Under the pieces are notes generated by a model. The model made no database searches. It was not told the DNA's origin and was given only the letters and a program-made list of their open reading frames with translations. DNA of 64,000 bases from NCBI GenBank assembly GCA_039802205.1, contig JBDRWD010000009.1:1-64000 (forward strand). The letters are read 5' to 3'. Origin of the DNA: a candidate division WOR-3 bacterium (GTDB lineage Bacteria > Hydrothermota > Tepidihabitantia > SM23-42 > JAOAFX01). A program made the translations under genes and the position numbers. This document shows positions 3,055 to 61,576 of the stretch, in pieces; the first letter of the stretch is position 1; every line of letters begins with the position of its first letter.

Positions 3055-3181
3055 ATATTGCGAAGCATTCCATAATTAGGTAGGATGTGCGACTTTTGGT
3101 ATTATGGAGGTCATGTAGCTATAGCAGAGATCCCGATTTTTAGTCGGGATGGATTGGGGGTATTTTAAAGCAGGAGGTAAA

Positions 3182-4324
3182 ATGAATTTTGATTTAACTG
3201 CTGAACAAAAGATGCTTCAAGACCAGGTGCGTAAGTTTGCGGAAGCCGAACTGGCACCGGTCGCACCGGAGATAGACAAAACCGGTCAATTTCCTTGGGA
3301 AAATATTAAAAAATGTGCCAAACAGGGACTGCTTGGTATTATCGTTCCGGAAAAATATGGAGGCTCGGGATTGGATTTTGTTTCGCTGGCAATCGCTATT
3401 GAGGAAATATCACGTGTCTGCGCTACTACCGGGGTTATCGTGGCGGTGAATAATTCCCTTGTCACCTATCCCATTCTCACCTTCGGAACCGAGGAACAGA
3501 AGCAGAAGTATTTACCCCTTTTGTGCAGTGGCGAAAAGATTGGAGCGATTGGTATAACGGAACCGAATGCTGGAAGCGATGTGGCAGGAATGGAGACCAC
3601 TGCAAGACTTGAAGGAGATTATTATATCCTCAATGGCACTAAGCGCTTTATTACCAATGGCACCGAGGCGGGAATATATGTGGTATTTGCCTACACCAAT
3701 CGCGAATTGAAGCACAAAGGAATGTCGGCATTTATTGTGGAACGCGGAACCCCGGGTTTCAGTCTCGGGAAACACGAAGACTTGATGGGTATAAGAGCGA
3801 GTGGGAATTGTGAATTGATATTTGAAGATTGTAAAATTCCTAAAGAAAACCTACTCGGCAAAGAAGGAGAAGGATTTAAAATCTGTATGAATACATTGGA
3901 TGTCTCCCGGGTGGATATCGGTGCTCAGGCAGTGGGTATCGCTCAGGCGGCACTCGAAGCAGCAATAAAATATTCAAAAGAGCGGAAGGCATTTGGTCAG
4001 CCAATCTGTGAGTTTGAAATGATACAATCCATGCTGGCCGAGATGGCGACTCAGATTCACGCTGCCCGGTTGCTCGTTTACTATGCAGGATTTTGCAAGG
4101 ATAAAGGCATGCCGCGTTTTTCCAAAGAATCAGCCATGGCAAAGTATTTTGCCGCTACAATCGCCGTGGATGTTACGAGAAAAGCAGTTCAGATTTTTGG
4201 CGGCTATGGTTATACCAAAGATTATGTTGTTGAGCGGTTATACCGAGACGCCAAAATACTTGAACTCTATGAGGGAACGAGCGAAATTCAGAAGATTGTG
4301 ATTGCCCGGGAATTGCTAAAGTGA
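3182..4324 (+). CDS. Acyl-CoA dehydrogenase, short-chain type
   Basis: I chose the ATG at 3182 because AGGAGG lies 5 nt upstream; an in-frame start at 3149 would add an unrelated stretch. The 380-residue product is a canonical short-chain acyl-CoA dehydrogenase: GITEPNAGSD, FITNG, ERKAFGQPICEF, QIFGGYGYTKDY and YEGTSEIQK with the catalytic Glu are all present. It most likely oxidises butyryl-CoA or a similar short or branched acyl-CoA and reduces the EtfBA encoded next. A small hairpin (ATCCCGA…TCGGGAT) precedes it at 3131-3151. It is the most conventional of the three paralogs. Confidence 0.92.
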   Translation: MNFDLTAEQKMLQDQVRKFAEAELAPVAPEIDKTGQFPWENIKKCAKQGLLGIIVPEKYGGSGLDFVSLAIAIEEISRVCATTGVIVAVNNSLVTYPILTFGTEEQKQKYLPLLCSGEKIGAIGITEPNAGSDVAGMETTARLEGDYYILNGTKRFITNGTEAGIYVVFAYTNRELKHKGMSAFIVERGTPGFSLGKHEDLMGIRASGNCELIFEDCKIPKENLLGKEGEGFKICMNTLDVSRVDIGAQAVGIAQAALEAAIKYSKERKAFGQPICEFEMIQSMLAEMATQIHAARLLVYYAGFCKDKGMPRFSKESAMAKYFAATIAVDVTRKAVQIFGGYGYTKDYVVERLYRDAKILELYEGTSEIQKIVIARELLK

Positions 4325-5162: not shown

Positions 5163-6149
5163 ATGGCTGGGATAGCAATTCTCGTTGAACATCGCCAGGG
5201 GCAGATTCGCGACATCACTTTTGAACTTTTGACCCTGGGGCGCAAACTGGCGCAAAGTTTAAATACCAAATGCACGGCTGTGCTCCTGGCTGACGATTCT
5301 TCAAAATTTATTGGCCAATTGAAAGACCAGGCTGATCGTATAATCGTTATGGAGAGTGGGGTATTTAGAGATTTCAATGCCGAAGTATATCAGATTGCCT
5401 TAGCGGAAGTTTTGAAAAAGGAAACCCCGTTTTTGATGCTCATAGGCCATACCGCGCTTGGTATGGATCTGGGACCAGCACTCGCCACCCAGTTGGATCT
5501 GCCGTTTGCTACGGATTGCCTTGATGTACAGATTTTTGATGGCAAAGTGAGGGTTATTCGTTCGATGTATGATGGAAAATTAAATGCCCGGGTGCTTTTG
5601 AGAGAAAGTCCATCTTACATCCTTACCTGCCGGAGTGGAAACACACCTGTGGAAACAGCAAATCTTGATGCCGAAATTATAAATTGGGAACCACCGATAG
5701 ATGCCCAACCCGAATATCGTAAATTCATTGAATACATTGAGGCTGCGGTCGGTGCGGTGGATATCACCAAGGCCGATATTATTGTCGCGGTGGGCAGAGG
5801 AATAAAAGATAAAGCAAATCTTCCTTTAATTGAAGACTTTGCCCGGGTGATCGGTGGAGTGCTGGGCTGTACCCGACCGGTTGTGGATGCTGGCTGGCTT
5901 CCTAAAGAGCATCAGGTCGGTTCATCAGGTAAGACTGTTAAACCTAAATTATATATCGCCCTGGGTATTTCAGGTGCATTCCAGCATATAATGGGGATGA
6001 AGAATTCAGATACTATCATCGCGGTTAACAAAGACCCTAATGCTCCGATATTTAATGAGGCAGATTACGGCATTGTTGAAGACCTTTTTAAAGTTGTTCC
6101 GGTTCTTAAGAATAAAATTCTGGAAATGAAACAAGCAAAAGGTATGTGA
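5163..6149 (+). CDS. etfA: Electron transfer flavoprotein, alpha subunit
   Basis: This 328-residue ETF alpha subunit has a variable N-terminal alpha/beta domain and the conserved C-terminal FAD domain: VAVGRGI, then GCTRPVVDAGW, HQVGSSGKTVKPKLYIALGI, SGAFQH and INKDP-like AVNKDPNAPIF. These residues bind FAD. It starts 24 nt after etfB with a GGGGG-rich SD. It forms the heterodimer that accepts electrons from the acyl-CoA dehydrogenases encoded upstream. Confidence 0.95.
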   Translation: MAGIAILVEHRQGQIRDITFELLTLGRKLAQSLNTKCTAVLLADDSSKFIGQLKDQADRIIVMESGVFRDFNAEVYQIALAEVLKKETPFLMLIGHTALGMDLGPALATQLDLPFATDCLDVQIFDGKVRVIRSMYDGKLNARVLLRESPSYILTCRSGNTPVETANLDAEIINWEPPIDAQPEYRKFIEYIEAAVGAVDITKADIIVAVGRGIKDKANLPLIEDFARVIGGVLGCTRPVVDAGWLPKEHQVGSSGKTVKPKLYIALGISGAFQHIMGMKNSDTIIAVNKDPNAPIFNEADYGIVEDLFKVVPVLKNKILEMKQAKGM

Positions 6150-35578: not shown

Positions 35579-35606
35579 TTGATTTTTTTAGGATTTAATC
35601 TATAAT
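35579..35606 (+). promoter_or_regulatory. Sigma-70 promoter of the tyrosine recombinase, leaderless
   Basis: TTGATT (35579-35584), a 16-bp spacer and TATAAT (35601-35606). The recombinase ATG is at 35613, only 7 nt beyond the -10 box, so transcription should start at or within a base or two of the ATG and the mRNA would be leaderless. No SD is present. Confidence 0.7.
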
Positions 35607-35612
35607 TTTATA

Positions 35613-36806
35613 ATGAGTAATCTTTATGACAAAAATAGGCAAGTGTCGAAAGTTTCTATTAAAAGAGGCGAATCAGGTGAAATCAGGGTCTCTTTCTCTT
35701 ATATTCCAGATTTTGTGCAAAGGATTAAAACCATTGAAGGACATCGCTGGCATCCTGATGGGAAGTATTGGGGTTTTCCAAATACCAATGGAACTCTGGA
35801 GAAGATTTTGAAGGTTTTTGAAGGGCAAGAAATTAATTTAGATCCAGCCTTGCAAAATGTTATTGTGGAGAACAAAGTCGCTCCTGCGAAAGCAGAGAAG
35901 CAATTTCAAGCAGAATCTAATAAAATTTCCTCTCCCCTTGTGGGAGAGGATAAAGGTGAGGGGGATTTTAAAGATTTACGTCGAGAACTTCTCTCAAGAA
36001 AATACAGTTATAAAACTATAAAAACCTATCTCTACTTCAATAGAGATTTCCTGAACTTTATCGGCAAAGGCCCTTCAGAGATAACCGATAATGACATCAA
36101 AGACTATCTGGTTCACCTTGCCGAAGAAAAACAATCCGCTACCTCAACACTCAATCAAGCAATCAATGCCCTCAAATTCTATTATGGTAGTATGCTCAAA
36201 AAGAAGTTTATCCATGAAGTCAAAAGACCTCGCAGAGATAGAAAGCTCCCAGTTGTTTTGAGTAAAGAAGAGATTGCAAAAATTCTTAATTCAGTGTATA
36301 ATATTAAGCATAAGGCAATTTTGATGTTGACATATTCTGCTGGATTAAGGGTTGGTGAAGTTGTAAAATTAAAACTGGAGGATATAGATAGCAATAGAAT
36401 GCTGATACATATCAAGGGTTCAAAGGGTAGAAAGGACAGATATACGGTACTTTCTGAGACTGCATTACAAATGTTAAGAGAGTTTTGGAAGAAATACAGA
36501 CCTAAAAAATGGCTTTTTGAAGGGGCAAGGGAGGAAAGGCATCTTTCCATACGGTCTGTGGATAAAATTTTCAGAAATGCCTGCAGTAAAGCCCGAATAA
36601 AGAAGGATGTATCAGTACACACCTTGAGACATAGTTTTGCTACGCATCTACTTGAAGCCGGAACTGATTTGCGATATATTCAAGAACTTTTAGGACATGC
36701 TCACAGCAAGACAACTGAAATATATACCCATGTCAGCACTAAAAGTCTGGGTAAGATAACAAGTCCACTCGACACTATCAATATGACAAAAGGTGATAAG
36801 AAATGA
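35613..36806 (+). CDS. Tyrosine recombinase/integrase with N-terminal HARP-like domain
   Basis: This 397-residue site-specific recombinase has three parts. Residues 12-70 (RVSFSYIPDFVQRIKTIEGH…KYWGFP) resemble a HARP-type domain; residues 120-195 are the SAM-like core-binding domain. Residues 210-390 are the catalytic domain: Arg in AGLRVGE, Lys in GSKGRKDR, HTLRH, LGHAHSKTTEIYTH with His and Tyr. The tail GKITSPLD resembles the end of IntI and related Xer enzymes. The integron-specific patch between Lys and HxxR is absent. Residues 105-118 (SSPLVGEDKGEG) are an in-frame copy of a dispersed palindromic repeat. It precedes attC-like sites and two cassette-like genes. Confidence 0.9.
   Translation: MSNLYDKNRQVSKVSIKRGESGEIRVSFSYIPDFVQRIKTIEGHRWHPDGKYWGFPNTNGTLEKILKVFEGQEINLDPALQNVIVENKVAPAKAEKQFQAESNKISSPLVGEDKGEGDFKDLRRELLSRKYSYKTIKTYLYFNRDFLNFIGKGPSEITDNDIKDYLVHLAEEKQSATSTLNQAINALKFYYGSMLKKKFIHEVKRPRRDRKLPVVLSKEEIAKILNSVYNIKHKAILMLTYSAGLRVGEVVKLKLEDIDSNRMLIHIKGSKGRKDRYTVLSETALQMLREFWKKYRPKKWLFEGAREERHLSIRSVDKIFRNACSKARIKKDVSVHTLRHSFATHLLEAGTDLRYIQELLGHAHSKTTEIYTHVSTKSLGKITSPLDTINMTKGDKK
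35929..35965. repeat. Palindromic repeat inserted in frame within the recombinase gene
   Basis: CCTCTCCCCTTGTGGGAGAGG followed by ATAAAGGTGAGGG is a copy of the element seen at 49044, 53405 and 59355. Here it is read through in frame as SPLVGEDKGEG between the HARP-like and core-binding domains, apparently as a linker. Confidence 0.8.
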
Positions 36807-36894
36807 GAATATTTGTTAGCTCAAAGGGTCGCTGGCCGTTCAGCCAGAATGAAAATGTTCGCACCAGGTGCTACTATCATCCCATTTTTGGTAG

Positions 36895-36932
36895 TATAAT
36901 AGCACTCGGTGCTATTATAAACGAGTTAGGCG
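36895..36932. other. Candidate recombination site: hairpin plus GTTAGGCG box
   Basis: A perfect 11-bp hairpin, TATAATAGCAC-TCG-GTGCTATTATA (36895-36919), ends 5 nt before GTTAGGCG (36925-36932). That box is the exact reverse complement of CGCCTAAC at 37673-37680, and with one more base 9 of 9 pair. If cleavage follows integron rules (G/TTRRRY), the first cassette begins at T36926. It lies about 120 nt after the recombinase stop, so it could be an attI-like site or the scar of an earlier cassette. Confidence 0.5.
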
Positions 36933-37004
36933 AAATTGCACAAAGATTTAATAAACAGGCAAATGATATAGAATTAGGAGGTATAAACTATAGAAGAGAA
37001 AACC

Positions 37005-37664
37005 ATGAAAGAAAAAATGGCGGAAGCTAAGAAAATCTACTACGAGAAAGATTTTCGAAACTACATGAGAGGGATGCAAGGATTTACAAACGAGGATTTT
37101 GAAAAAGTCGTTCCTTTGATAAAGGATAAAGTAATCAAATCAAACGAAAAAAATCCTTATGAAATATTCGAGCGTATCTTGAAGGAGACCGCTAATGAAT
37201 GGAATAAACCAACTTTTCCAGTGCATGCAGATTGGCACCATTATTTAGTTCCTGGCGTTATTTTGGCTGCCATGAGAAATTGCGGTTACAACATAACTGA
37301 TAAGGACATTGAAGAAGCAATGCATCGGGGGGAGAATTTTCCTGGCGGTTCATGTGGATTTGCCGGAACTTGCGGCGGGGCATTTAGTGTGGGGATTGTT
37401 ATGAGTATTGTGAACAAAACAACACCTCTCCATGTGGAGGAGCGAGTTGAGAGTATGCAGGCAGTCATAGATACATTAAACGAAATAAAGAAATACCCTC
37501 GGAGATGCTGTAAAAGAAGTAGTTACACTGCAATAGAAACTGCTGTAAAATTCTTGAATAAGAAAGGATACGATAAAATAGAAATAGGAAAGATTAATTG
37601 TTCATGGTCATCGGGAAATAAAACTTGTTTGGGGATTAAATGTCCTTATTTCAAGAAGAATTAA
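37005..37664 (+). CDS. DUF5714 family Cys-rich protein, cassette-borne
   Basis: This 219-residue protein matches the DUF5714 pattern: HHYLVPGVILAAMRNCGYNI, then a Cys/Gly-rich GGSCGFAGTCGGAFSVGI and TTPLHVEER, with further Cys pairs near the end (RRCCKRSS, CSWSSGNKTC, CPYF). It is probably a metal- or Fe-S-binding enzyme of unknown reaction. The ATG at 37005 has no adjacent SD. A perfect AGGAGG (36976-36981) instead sits 8 nt before an in-frame ATA at 36990, so the true start may be ATA. The gene lies between the GTTAGGCG box and an attC-like site. Confidence 0.78.
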   Translation: MKEKMAEAKKIYYEKDFRNYMRGMQGFTNEDFEKVVPLIKDKVIKSNEKNPYEIFERILKETANEWNKPTFPVHADWHHYLVPGVILAAMRNCGYNITDKDIEEAMHRGENFPGGSCGFAGTCGGAFSVGIVMSIVNKTTPLHVEERVESMQAVIDTLNEIKKYPRRCCKRSSYTAIETAVKFLNKKGYDKIEIGKINCSWSSGNKTCLGIKCPYFKKN

Positions 37665-37672
37665 TGCAACGT

Positions 37673-37762
37673 CGCCTAACACCGGACATACGGTTCGGGC
37701 TTACGCCCTCACCCAAATGCTCGGCTACGCCTCGCACTTCGTATGTCCGCAGCCGTTATCTG
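37673..37762. other. attC-like site 1 (after DUF5714 gene)
   Basis: CGCCTAAC (R''-like, 37673-37680) is followed by CGGACATACG (37683-37692), a central stretch with its own small hairpins, the perfect complement CGTATGTCCG (37740-37749), and GTTATCTG (37755-37762). The organisation matches integron attC sites: RYYYAAC, imperfect palindrome, GTT box. The R' hexamer is imperfect, as expected where the last bases belong to the next cassette. It begins 9 nt after the gene stop. Confidence 0.6.
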
Positions 37763-37802
37763 AAATGCTCTCATCAAATTGCAAATTGAAAGAGAGGGAG
37801 TT

Positions 37803-38201
37803 ATGACACAAGAGAAAGCCTCGTACTTTATCAGTCTCGCATACGCTCCTAAATTTACCCGGATGGCTGGCTTAGAGACGACAATCCTTACTGGATTGCA
37901 TGGTGAGAAGATGATGATGGTGCTCAACGCCACGTTGCCAGGTCATACTGTGCCACTACACTCTCATCCACACGAGCAAATTGGAATGGTTTTCGCTGGT
38001 AAAGCGAGACTGCGTATCGGAGAAGAAGAACAAATAGTCCAAAAAGGGGATTTCTACTGTATTCCTGCAAATGTTCCGCATAGCGACACCTGCATAGGCG
38101 ACGAACCTTTTGTGATGTTGGATATTTTCTACCCAGTGCGAGAAGATTTTATCGAGAAGCTCAAGCGGTCCTCAGGTTTACAGGAACAGGAAGGGAAATG
38201 A
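37803..38201 (+). CDS. Cupin-domain protein, cassette-borne
   Basis: I chose the ATG at 37803 after GAGGGAG; a TTG at 37779 is in frame but lacks an SD. The 132-residue product is a single-domain cupin. TVPLHSHPHEQIGMVFAGKARLRIG is motif 1 with metal His and Glu, and GDFYCIPANVPHSDTC is motif 2 with the last His. Such proteins bind a metal and may be isomerases, dioxygenase-like or sensors. No substrate can be assigned. It lies alone between two attC-like sites with no promoter of its own, like an integron gene cassette. Confidence 0.82.
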   Translation: MTQEKASYFISLAYAPKFTRMAGLETTILTGLHGEKMMMVLNATLPGHTVPLHSHPHEQIGMVFAGKARLRIGEEEQIVQKGDFYCIPANVPHSDTCIGDEPFVMLDIFYPVREDFIEKLKRSSGLQEQEGK

Positions 38202-38212
38202 ATCGGACACTT

Positions 38213-38293
38213 CAGCTAACACGGGCTTTCCGATTTCATTTCACTTCGCCCAAATCGCCTGCGGCGGCTTCGCAAAGCCCGGGATCGTTACGA
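38213..38293. other. attC-like site 2 (after cupin gene)
   Basis: CAGCTAAC (38213-38220) precedes CGGGCTTT (38222-38229), an inner CGATTT/AAATCG pair, AAAGCCCG (38274-38281) and GTTACGA (from 38287). CAGCTAAC pairs 7 of 8 with the GTTATCTG of site 1, as it should if 37756-38287 is one circularisable cassette. It begins 11 nt after the cupin stop. Confidence 0.55.
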
Positions 38294-38395
38294 AAGTCGT
38301 GCAAAAACCGTTAACAATATTTATAAAAGTGTAGGAAAATTGAAAAAAGTTCAAGACATCAAAAAATAATTGCTATGTTAATTCTGGTATAATCT

Positions 38396-48850: not shown

Positions 48851-49043
48851 AATTCCTTATATTATGTAGGAACGGTTTCAAACTGCGGTCGTCCGGTCTT
48901 TGGAGTTAATTCGTAAGAATTTTATGTTAAAGCAAAAAAAATAATTTTAATGGGGTAAGGCTTAATAACCTCCTGATTAAATCAAGGGAATGGAATATGT
49001 CATTTATGGTACATAAGAATGCTATGAAATTTAATAAGATTAT
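48851..49043. other. Intergenic stretch with repeat fragment
   Basis: It contains the 24-nt repeat GGAGTTAATTCGTAAGAATT plus TTAT (48902-48925), identical to 35408-35431. No gene, promoter or terminator is convincing. Confidence 0.6.
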
Positions 49044-59509: not shown

Positions 59510-60811
59510 ATGGGGACCTGGCATAAGATAATCATTGGCGATGCAAGATGGATGAAAGAAGTTCCCGATGAATCCGTCCATCTTATTATCACATCACCTC
59601 CTTACTGGCAGTTAAAGGATTACGGTAATGGAAAGCAAATAGGATTTAATGATACTTATGAAGAATATATAAATAACCTTAACCTTGTCTGGAGTGAATG
59701 CCGCAGAGTTCTTCATAAAGGTTGCCGTTTGTGTATTAACATTGGAGACCAGTTTGCCCGTTCGGTTTATTATGGAAGATATAAGGTTATTCCGATCAGG
59801 ACAGAAATCATCAAATTTTGTGAGAGCGCAGGATTTGATTATATGGGCGCAATTATCTGGCAGAAGGTTACTACCTGTCATACAACTGGCGGAGCAACAG
59901 TAATGGGTTCTTATCCTTACCCAAGGAATGGGATTCTTAAATTAGACTATGAATTTATTTTGATTTTTAAGAAATACGGTAGTCCTCCAAAGGTAAGTAA
60001 AGAAATAAAAGAAAAGTCAAAATTGACCGATGAAGAATGGAATCAATATTTTACCGGACACTGGAATTTTCCTGGAGAAAAGCAGGATAAACATCTTGCA
60101 ATGTTTCCGGAGGAATTACCAAGACGTCTTATCAAAATGTTCAGTTTTGTCGGAGATACTATACTTGACCCTTTTCTTGGAAGCGGTACGACATCTTTAG
60201 CAGCAAGAAAACTGAATAGGAATTCTATCGGATATGAAATAAACGAAGATTTTTTACCCATTATAAAAGAGAAACTTGGCATAAATCAAAAAACAATGTT
60301 TGAGGACGCAACTTTTGAAATAATAAAGCAAAAAGAAATAAAAACAGATTTCAAAGAAGCGATCAAAAAATTACCATATATCTTTAAAGACCCTATTAAG
60401 TTTGATAAAAAGGTTGACCCTAAAAAGTTAAGATTCGGTTCAAAAATTGATAATTCCAATTACGAGCGTGAAAAATATTACACAGTGAAAGAAATACTTT
60501 CTCCAGAGATTTTAATTTTAAATAATGGGTTAAAAATCAGATTACTCGGGATTAAAGAAAAACCGGATAAAAATGGAGAGGCTGTTAAATTTTTGAAAGA
60601 GAAAACAAAGGGACAGAAGGTATTCATTAGATTTGATGAAATAAAATATGATGAGCAGAACAACTTACTTTGTTATCTTTATTTACAGAATAAAACTTTT
60701 TTAAATGCACATCTGATTAAGAATGGATTGGCTGATGTAGATAATGCGCTTAATTATAAGTATAAATCAAAGTTTTTAAACCTAAGAGACATACTAATCA
60801 AAGAATCTTAA
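59510..60811 (+). CDS. DNA methyltransferase with SNase-like C-terminal domain
   Basis: This 433-residue protein is a beta-class amino-methyltransferase. Motif IV is TSPPYW near residue 31 and the SAM-binding motif is DPFLGSGTTSLAA near residue 222. TSPPYW fits N4-cytosine or N6-adenine methylation. Residues 320-425 resemble a staphylococcal-nuclease domain (ILNNGLKIRLLGIKE… VKFLKEKTKGQKVFI… HLIKNGLADV). The second catalytic Arg of SNase (GR in DKYGRGLA) reads NN here, so nuclease activity is unlikely and a binding role is more likely. It is followed after 1 nt by an MjaI-like restriction enzyme. Confidence 0.88.
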   Translation: MGTWHKIIIGDARWMKEVPDESVHLIITSPPYWQLKDYGNGKQIGFNDTYEEYINNLNLVWSECRRVLHKGCRLCINIGDQFARSVYYGRYKVIPIRTEIIKFCESAGFDYMGAIIWQKVTTCHTTGGATVMGSYPYPRNGILKLDYEFILIFKKYGSPPKVSKEIKEKSKLTDEEWNQYFTGHWNFPGEKQDKHLAMFPEELPRRLIKMFSFVGDTILDPFLGSGTTSLAARKLNRNSIGYEINEDFLPIIKEKLGINQKTMFEDATFEIIKQKEIKTDFKEAIKKLPYIFKDPIKFDKKVDPKKLRFGSKIDNSNYEREKYYTVKEILSPEILILNNGLKIRLLGIKEKPDKNGEAVKFLKEKTKGQKVFIRFDEIKYDEQNNLLCYLYLQNKTFLNAHLIKNGLADVDNALNYKYKSKFLNLRDILIKES

Positions 60812-60812
60812 T

Positions 60813-61397
60813 ATGAAGATAAAAATCACTATTGATGAAATCAGGAGATATCTGGATATTGAAACGCCTGAATTTCCAAAATATGTAGCGCCACTTATCA
60901 ATTTAGCAAATCAATATGCACAAGGAACACGGCCGAGAGTGGTTGGTCAGATGAGTGAACTTATACAGGAGTTTGAAGGGAAAACATTGAAAGAATGGGA
61001 AAAGTGGTATTTAAAGAAAAAACCTGAAGCAATAAAAAGCGCTACAGAAAAAATATTACAGAAATTGAAAGAATTAAGAAATGCAATGGATAAGATAGAC
61101 AGGGCAACCGTTGAGAAATGGGTAAGGGATTTAGTGATTTTAAAAACTTTTGCCGGGCTAAGATTTCAGGAAGCGATACTTAAGAAAGGTGCTGAGTTAA
61201 AAGGAACAAATTACCGTCTCGCTGAACCTGATGAAGAGTCAAAAGGAATAGATGGCTATATCGGAAACATTCCAATATCTATAAAACCCCATACCTATGA
61301 GGCGAAAGCAGCATTACCAGAACACATAGATGTCAAAATCATCTATTATAGAAAGATTGATGATGGAATTGAGGTGGATTATGGAGAAATATTGTAA
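60813..61397 (+). CDS. MjaI-type restriction endonuclease
   Basis: This 194-residue protein contains LINLANQYAQGTRPRVVGQM, IKSATEKILQKL, WVRDLVILKTFAGLRFQEAIL and EESKGIDGYIGNIPISIKP, the pattern I associate with MjaI-family enzymes, which cut CTAG. The GIDG…SIK stretch is a likely PD-(D/E)xK variant with Asp and Lys. It forms a Type II pair with the methyltransferase 1 nt upstream. The CTAG specificity is inferred from family resemblance only. An attC-like site begins 17 nt after its stop. Confidence 0.78.
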   Translation: MKIKITIDEIRRYLDIETPEFPKYVAPLINLANQYAQGTRPRVVGQMSELIQEFEGKTLKEWEKWYLKKKPEAIKSATEKILQKLKELRNAMDKIDRATVEKWVRDLVILKTFAGLRFQEAILKKGAELKGTNYRLAEPDEESKGIDGYIGNIPISIKPHTYEAKAALPEHIDVKIIYYRKIDDGIEVDYGEIL

Positions 61398-61414
61398 TTA
61401 TCAGTCACCGCATC

Positions 61415-61554
61415 GCTTAACACAGCATAAAAGAGCCTGCCCTGATGAAAATCAGGGTTCGTGCATTACCTGTTCCGCGCGCAACGCACAAGCAAGCGGC
61501 ACGCACACAAATTTTTGCTGCGCAAATTCTACTTTTACGCTTGAGCCGTTAGGC
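61415..61554. other. attC-like site 4 (between R-M genes and M28-like gene)
   Basis: GCTTAAC (61415-61421, RYYYAAC) and GTTAGGC (61548-61554, GTTRRRY) bound a 140-bp imperfect palindrome. GCATAAAAG (61425-61433) pairs with CTTTTACGC (61532-61540) with one wobble. An internal CCCTGAT-GAAA-ATCAGGG hairpin lies at 61440-61457. The size and both boxes fit integron attC sites. If so, the next cassette starts at T61549 and the M28-like gene starts 28 nt later. Confidence 0.6.
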
Positions 61555-61576
61555 AAAATCATAAGGAGGTGTTAAA

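Follow-up and report, generated by a model that had tools for sequence, protein, structure and literature searches.

Organisation of the locus

A tyrosine recombinase gene followed by two single-gene cassettes was found in the 64,000 nt stretch of DNA analysed here (the window), which comes from a 2.65 Mb, 96% complete MAG of a WOR-3-type candidate phylum. The features of the locus, with attC sites scored by the covariance model R1 (see below), are as follows.

35579..35606, + strand: putative sigma70-type promoter (TTGATT, 16 nt, TATAAT; 10/12 consensus positions; consensus match only)
35613..36806, + strand: patch-less tyrosine recombinase, 397 aa, with HARP-like N-terminal, SAM-like and catalytic domains; proposed integron integrase
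36861..36932, + strand: attI-like site, two related palindromes, then AACGA/GTTAGGCG; architecture recurrent in relatives
36926..37755, + strand: cassette 1, from the TT of the attI crossover to the G of the next crossover; complementary ends
37005..37664, + strand: DUF5714 gene in cassette 1, 219 aa (PF18978, E 3e-48)
37673..37762, + strand: attC of cassette 1, R'' CGCCTAAC ... R' GTTATCTG (R1 67 bits, E 2.1e-13)
37756..38287, + strand: cassette 2; ends 7/8 complementary
37803..38201, + strand: cupin gene in cassette 2 (PF07883, E 3e-17); ATG at 37803, listed open reading frame from TTG at 37779
38213..38294, + strand: attC of cassette 2, R'' CAGCTAAC ... R' GTTACGAA (R1 53 bits, E 3.5e-10)
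61414..61555, + strand: probable third attC, CGCTTAAC ... GTTAGGCA (R1 20.4 bits, E 0.012); weak alone

The second palindrome of the attI-like site, TATAATAGCACTCGGTGCTATTATA, lies at 36895-36919, and the crossover, G/TT, falls at 36925/36926. This site (36861-36932) had been overlooked in the initial annotation, as had the complementarity of approximately 16 nt that is private to the ends of each cassette. More than 15 relatives of the recombinase, from MAGs of WOR-3, Nitrospirota and Archaeoglobi, are followed by a site of the same architecture and spacing; the recurrent design is a palindrome, commonly 5-6 nt before TATRAAC-RA/GTTRRRY, after which come unrelated genes or cassettes. The arms of the palindrome vary among loci, but mostly remain complementary. 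The locus meets the integron criterion of an attI with a GTTRRRY crossover adjoining the integrase gene. In two further MAGs the assembly breaks at this crossover: contig L098 terminates exactly at ...CACGA/GTTA, and L146 has a scaffold gap directly after AACAA/GTT, as would be expected if the population carried different first cassettes.

The boxes that had originally been paired around the two genes do match, GTTAGGCG (36925-36932) and CGCCTAAC (37673-37680) being 8/8 complementary around the DUF5714 gene, and GTTATCTG (37755-37762) and CAGCTAAC (38213-38220) 7/8 complementary around the cupin gene; the ends of a homologous cupin cassette in L292, which occupies the first position at attI, are 8/8 complementary. 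At cassette 1, the ends GTTAGGCGAAATTGC and GCAACGTCGCCTAAC are complementary over about 16 nt, and GTTACGAA, at 38287-38294, forms the right end of the second cassette's palindrome. The DUF5714 gene is present in the host alone, being absent from the other 146 of the 147 phylum genomes.

The probable third attC, in which the stem ACAGCATAAAAG/CTTTTACGCTTG is visible, lies directly past the stop codon of a restriction endonuclease gene and is distant from any recombinase. The region 59510-61555 encodes a fusion of a DNA methylase with a staphylococcal-nuclease-like domain (PF01555 and PF00565) and an MjaI-type restriction endonuclease (PF09568), and includes this weak site; it is possibly a restriction-modification cassette, for which no left box was found.

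A recombinase lacking the IntI patch

The recombinase matches the Pfam families SAM_4 and Phage_integrase. Its best NCBIfam equivalog is XerA_Arch (NF040815), a model entitled 'site-specific tyrosine recombinase/integron integrase', against which it scores 244 bits, over the curated cut-off of 220; the score against integrase_gron, 225 bits, is under the cut-off of 265. The match to TIGR02249 is split (3-180 and 234-314, with a gap between), and members of the family generally match in two blocks, 3-180 and approximately 230-315, between which the patch is lacking. Alignment revealed that an IntI insert of about 30 + 10 residues, the roughly 40-residue patch with its I2 helix, is absent from the window recombinase, bearing out the original description of the protein. 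Hence the integron criterion of an IntI-type integrase having the patch, or additional domain (I2), is not met. No patch-bearing IntI scoring over the TIGR02249 cut-off was found in the host genome, or in any of the 147 phylum genomes, and the host has two further Xer-type recombinases. The closest PDB relative, by both sequence and fold, is the integron integrase 2a3v; the AlphaFold model was mediocre (four sequences, pLDDT 69), and served for the fold match only.

As had been reported, the gene is directed at the cassettes, lying on the + strand like the genes that they carry. The HARP-like N-terminal domain also proposed is only weakly supported: a Pfam search found no HARP-domain match in the window protein itself, and the Pfam HARP match in relatives sharing its N-terminal segment has an E-value of just 0.02. 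Such N-termini are found on both patch-less and patch-bearing recombinases, L101 having the patch and the HARP-like domain together. In the intact recombinase copies, third codon positions are approximately 2-4 times more variable than first and second positions, indicating that these copies are under purifying selection. A dispersed repeat of the host genome, CCTCTCCC...GGTGAGGG, occurs in frame at 35914-35966, within the linker that joins the HARP-like domain to the SAM-like one, and also at 49028 and 59351.

When the SAM and catalytic regions common to these proteins were used to build a tree, IntI were monophyletic without the patch-less family (100/99), and the window recombinase fell outside the IntI clade. 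A larger clade (100/100) unites IntI with two XerA-like proteins and the patch-less family, and is separate from the XerC/D types that were sampled, whilst the core patch-less clade, which includes an archaeal copy, is supported at 96/97.

attC sites across the phylum

A lineage model, R1, was built for this lineage-specific attC shape in place of IntegronFinder's attC model. Its seed sites came from a BLAST search with the first attC of the window, which detected similar elements in 22 of the 147 phylum genomes, and it was trained on 21 other sites, with those of the window excluded. When the covariance-model check suggested in the initial annotation was carried out on the window, both cassette sites were matched strongly and the third weakly. 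Class 1 attC loci, used as controls, were not matched by R1, and an Rfam scan of the window gave no matches. A loose attC pattern run over the host genome was discarded, having many chance matches, such as C11:6502 and C5:49886, which from their sequence we take to be rRNA and tRNA respectively.

R1 matches are found in 69 of the 147 phylum genomes, with different genes and often in arrays; conservation of the palindromes only as part of a fixed locus, which would have refuted the original proposal, is therefore not what is seen. The L'' and L' arms covary, 61 cells being changed on both sides (19 in shuffles), and 88% of cells are paired, compared with 25-44% when the arms are slid, so the criterion of R''/R' boxes and L''/L' arms in which structure is kept more than sequence is met. 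In integrons, the strand of attC that folds better is the bottom one. The same folding criterion is satisfied here, with the bottom strand the more stable in 25 of 27 reconstituted cassette junctions (P 1.5e-5). However, the criterion of extrahelical bases is not met: the L stem is unbroken for at least 8 bp in 16 of the 21 training attC (mostly 8-12 bp), whereas the class 1 controls, when folded, pair for 3 bp before an extrahelical base. Extrahelical bases dock on the I2 helix (PMC7790495), so the patch and these bases are missing together; that this joint absence reflects co-evolution is only an inference.

Cassette ends match their own partners more closely than permuted ones, both at positions 5-8 (108 against 74) and at positions 9-16 (138 against 87), with none of 5000 permuted sets as high. 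The complementarity of around 16 nt thus exceeds that of permuted pairs, implying that each cassette has its own end pair, as excised circles require; in canonical integrons it is confined to the R box. Most cassettes start with GTTRRRYGAAATKC, for instance at 36925-36939, an extension of the R box that is specific to the lineage, and position 11 of the start is a conserved A/C mismatch (T/G on the bottom strand).

Association with the recombinase and cassette turnover

An attC lies on the same strand within 3 kb of the recombinase 3' end in 12 of 15 assessable cases, where approximately 0.02 would be expected from the 270 attC matches in about 309 Mb. These cases, compiled by hand, are the phylum recombinase 3' ends beyond which the contig continues for about 700 bp or more. 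Sites are likewise present in 12 of the 13 genomes with a HARP-type recombinase, compared with 57 of the 134 others (Fisher P 7e-4, uncorrected for shared ancestry). An array of three cassettes lies behind the attI in G046, with attC at 3066, 3777 and 4381 of L108. No recombinase of the patch-less family was detected in the attC-rich genomes G128 and G015 (20 and 14 matches), for which another enzyme, cassette import, a lost integrase or missing contigs must account. All loci compared are MAG contigs, and binning errors are possible.

The cupin cassette, second in the window, occupies the first position in G072, a genome of another family, at the attI behind a decayed recombinase; the homology runs GTTA...CAGCTAAC and ends at both boxes. 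Between G139 and G072, again from different families, the left sides of the attI are unrelated, whilst the first cassette is shared, 109 of 111 positions (98%) being identical from G/TT onward. Hence the criterion of mobile cassettes, with the same cassette in other contexts and edges at the boxes, is met. Cassette content also differs among relatives behind the same recombinase family, a variation that the initial annotation had suggested looking for.

The putative promoter of the window lies directly before the recombinase start codon, and most copies of the gene have TTGACA or TTGACT, a spacer of 16 or 17 nt and TATAAT near the start (10-12 of 12 consensus positions). In the window, transcription of the integrase probably starts at this promoter and is inferred to read through into the cassettes. 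Many copies of the recombinase are decayed. The family is found in 7 of 59 Archaeoglobi genomes, where all examined copies are broken, five retaining the attI-like end and two loci (L310 and L316) having attC downstream; several WOR-3 copies have also decayed, such that present-day activity in these groups is uncertain. Among classical intI genes, too, roughly one in three is a pseudogene (PMC2426708). In some decayed copies the promoter, the 3' end and attI survive, and it may be inferred that the leader was retained for cassette expression. The remnants at L106 15690-16300, L107 8750-9120 and L147 9850-10300 comprise the promoter, the final 60-90 or so codons and attI, and still precede other genes or cassettes; one such remnant is duplicated in G004. 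Insertion of cassettes inside the gene was rejected as the origin of decayed copies, which look like internal deletions sparing the promoter, 3' end and attI.

A probable variant integron

We consider it likely, judging from sequence, that the locus is a complete integron variant, in which a patch-less integrase with a HARP-like domain points into the array and, it is inferred, catalyses recombination. The parts and their order, the recurrence across phyla, the sharp-edged turnover, private ends, folding bias and lack of a patch are read from the comparison of genomes, and the same layout is recurrent in several bacterial phyla and in archaea. The locus would be laid out as promoter, integrase gene, attI and promoter-less single-gene cassettes, each ending in attC. 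In a cassette circle, attC would fold from the bottom strand into a hairpin, and this circle would be inserted at the attI crossover (AACRA/GTT) by the recombinase encoded just upstream; recombination between two attC would let cassettes leave or move. Since the integrase points into the array, the genes nearest attI may be expressed by read-through of its promoter. Catalysis by the window recombinase, a single-stranded substrate and the service of the integrase promoter to the cassettes remain inferences, the evidence being entirely comparative, with no recombination observed.

Canonical integrons, both class 1 and sedentary chromosomal, similarly have an attI with a GTTRRRY crossover beside the integrase (attI1 being CCTAAAACAAA/GTTAGAT), one-gene cassettes, and attC with R'', L'', L' and R', in which the R box is restored only in the circle and the bottom strand folds better. 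The window integrase differs from theirs in lacking the IntI patch (I2 helix), in its HARP-like N-terminal domain and in being co-directional with the cassettes. With no patch, and mostly no extrahelical bases, the system is classed as a variant that is inferred to work like an integron, and is not a member of the IntI integrons. The HARP-IntI of Syntrophia (L101 and L200) also face attI, with the same order of gene, palindrome and GTT, and that of L101 shares the N-terminal domain, but both have the patch. Archaeal XerA and XerC/D have the same fold and no patch; the sampled Xer types, however, are on a separate branch, and we know of no attI or attC cassettes behind these recombinases. No literature linking WOR-3 or HARP with integrons was found, in a search that did not cover most subscription literature and preprints. 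The orientation of the reverse-oriented integrons of Spirochaetota type is mentioned in PMC9668308. Archaeal integrons (PMC9668308) and CALINs likewise consist of cassette arrays with attC in archaeal MAGs, most without detectable IntI; the IntIs there have the additional domain, and the main text does not mention Archaeoglobi. Patch-less integrases could explain some of these 'IntI-less' arrays.

The initial annotation had wavered between a new integron-like system and an IntI-independent cassette platform; the former is favoured, as the patch-less recombinase comes with an attI of its own and is probably the integrase. It remains conceivable, if unlikely, that a canonical patch-bearing IntI acting in trans, or horizontal transfer, placed the cassettes here, and that the recombinase beside them is either an unconnected bystander or an inactive relative. 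IntI-less CALIN arrays are indeed frequent (PMC9024848), no recombinase of the patch-less family was detected in several genomes with attC, and many members of the family are decayed; yet this would leave unexplained the adjacent and co-oriented attC behind 12 of 15 recombinase 3' ends, the conserved attI directly behind the gene in several phyla including archaea, the absence of any patch-bearing IntI over the cut-off from 147 genomes and the purifying selection on intact copies.

Less plausible still is a Xer-like housekeeping or phage-type integrase with its own attachment site, used by the cassettes as a secondary, attG-like target of some other integrase. The host already has two other Xer-type recombinases, the tree joins the family with IntI (100/100) and away from the sampled XerC/D types, and the patch-bearing HARP-IntI of Syntrophia share the gene-to-attI layout; these outweigh the XerA_Arch equivalog and the cassette recombination at non-attI attG sites reported in PMC12901181. 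That the palindromes arose by chance, or belong to a fixed operon with terminator hairpins and no cassette system, can be practically dismissed: two box matches alone might arise by chance, and the loose pattern does match by chance, but this would not account for the E-values of the covariance model, the covariation, the reappearance of the sites beside unrelated genes, the private complementarity that extends far into the ends, or homology that stops precisely with the cassette.

I2 has been treated as the innovation enabling integrons, and has been used to recognise their integrases in surveys (PMC7790495, PMC2426708); if patch-less integrons recur in bacteria and archaea, such surveys would be misfiling them as integrase-less arrays. 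They would also be a natural counter-example concerning what I2 and extrahelical bases do, and make the order of steps in the origin of integrons testable. IntI was reported to need the patch for activity (Messier and Roy 2001, as cited in PMC2426708), hence a patch-less enzyme must handle attC otherwise. As the branching order inside the large clade is unresolved, the patch may have been lost or not yet gained. It is possible, though we hold the idea only tentatively and would sooner bet against it, that the patch-less integrase recombines folded attC without extrahelical bases and descends from a stage before I2, with attC-like cassettes arising first and the patch second; if true, this would resolve the 'chicken-egg' problem that PMC4792948 raises about how integrons arose.

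A Bacteroidota MAG (G152; L212 3374 and 5528-5581; L213 3007 and 3987-4040) also encodes patch-less recombinases, with GTTGGCAA / GTTGTGTG behind them. The accompanying attC-like hairpins are 54 nt long, with the loop ATTAAAAC and an R'' matching at 8/8 positions, and these elements are probably the same system with a different attC shape.
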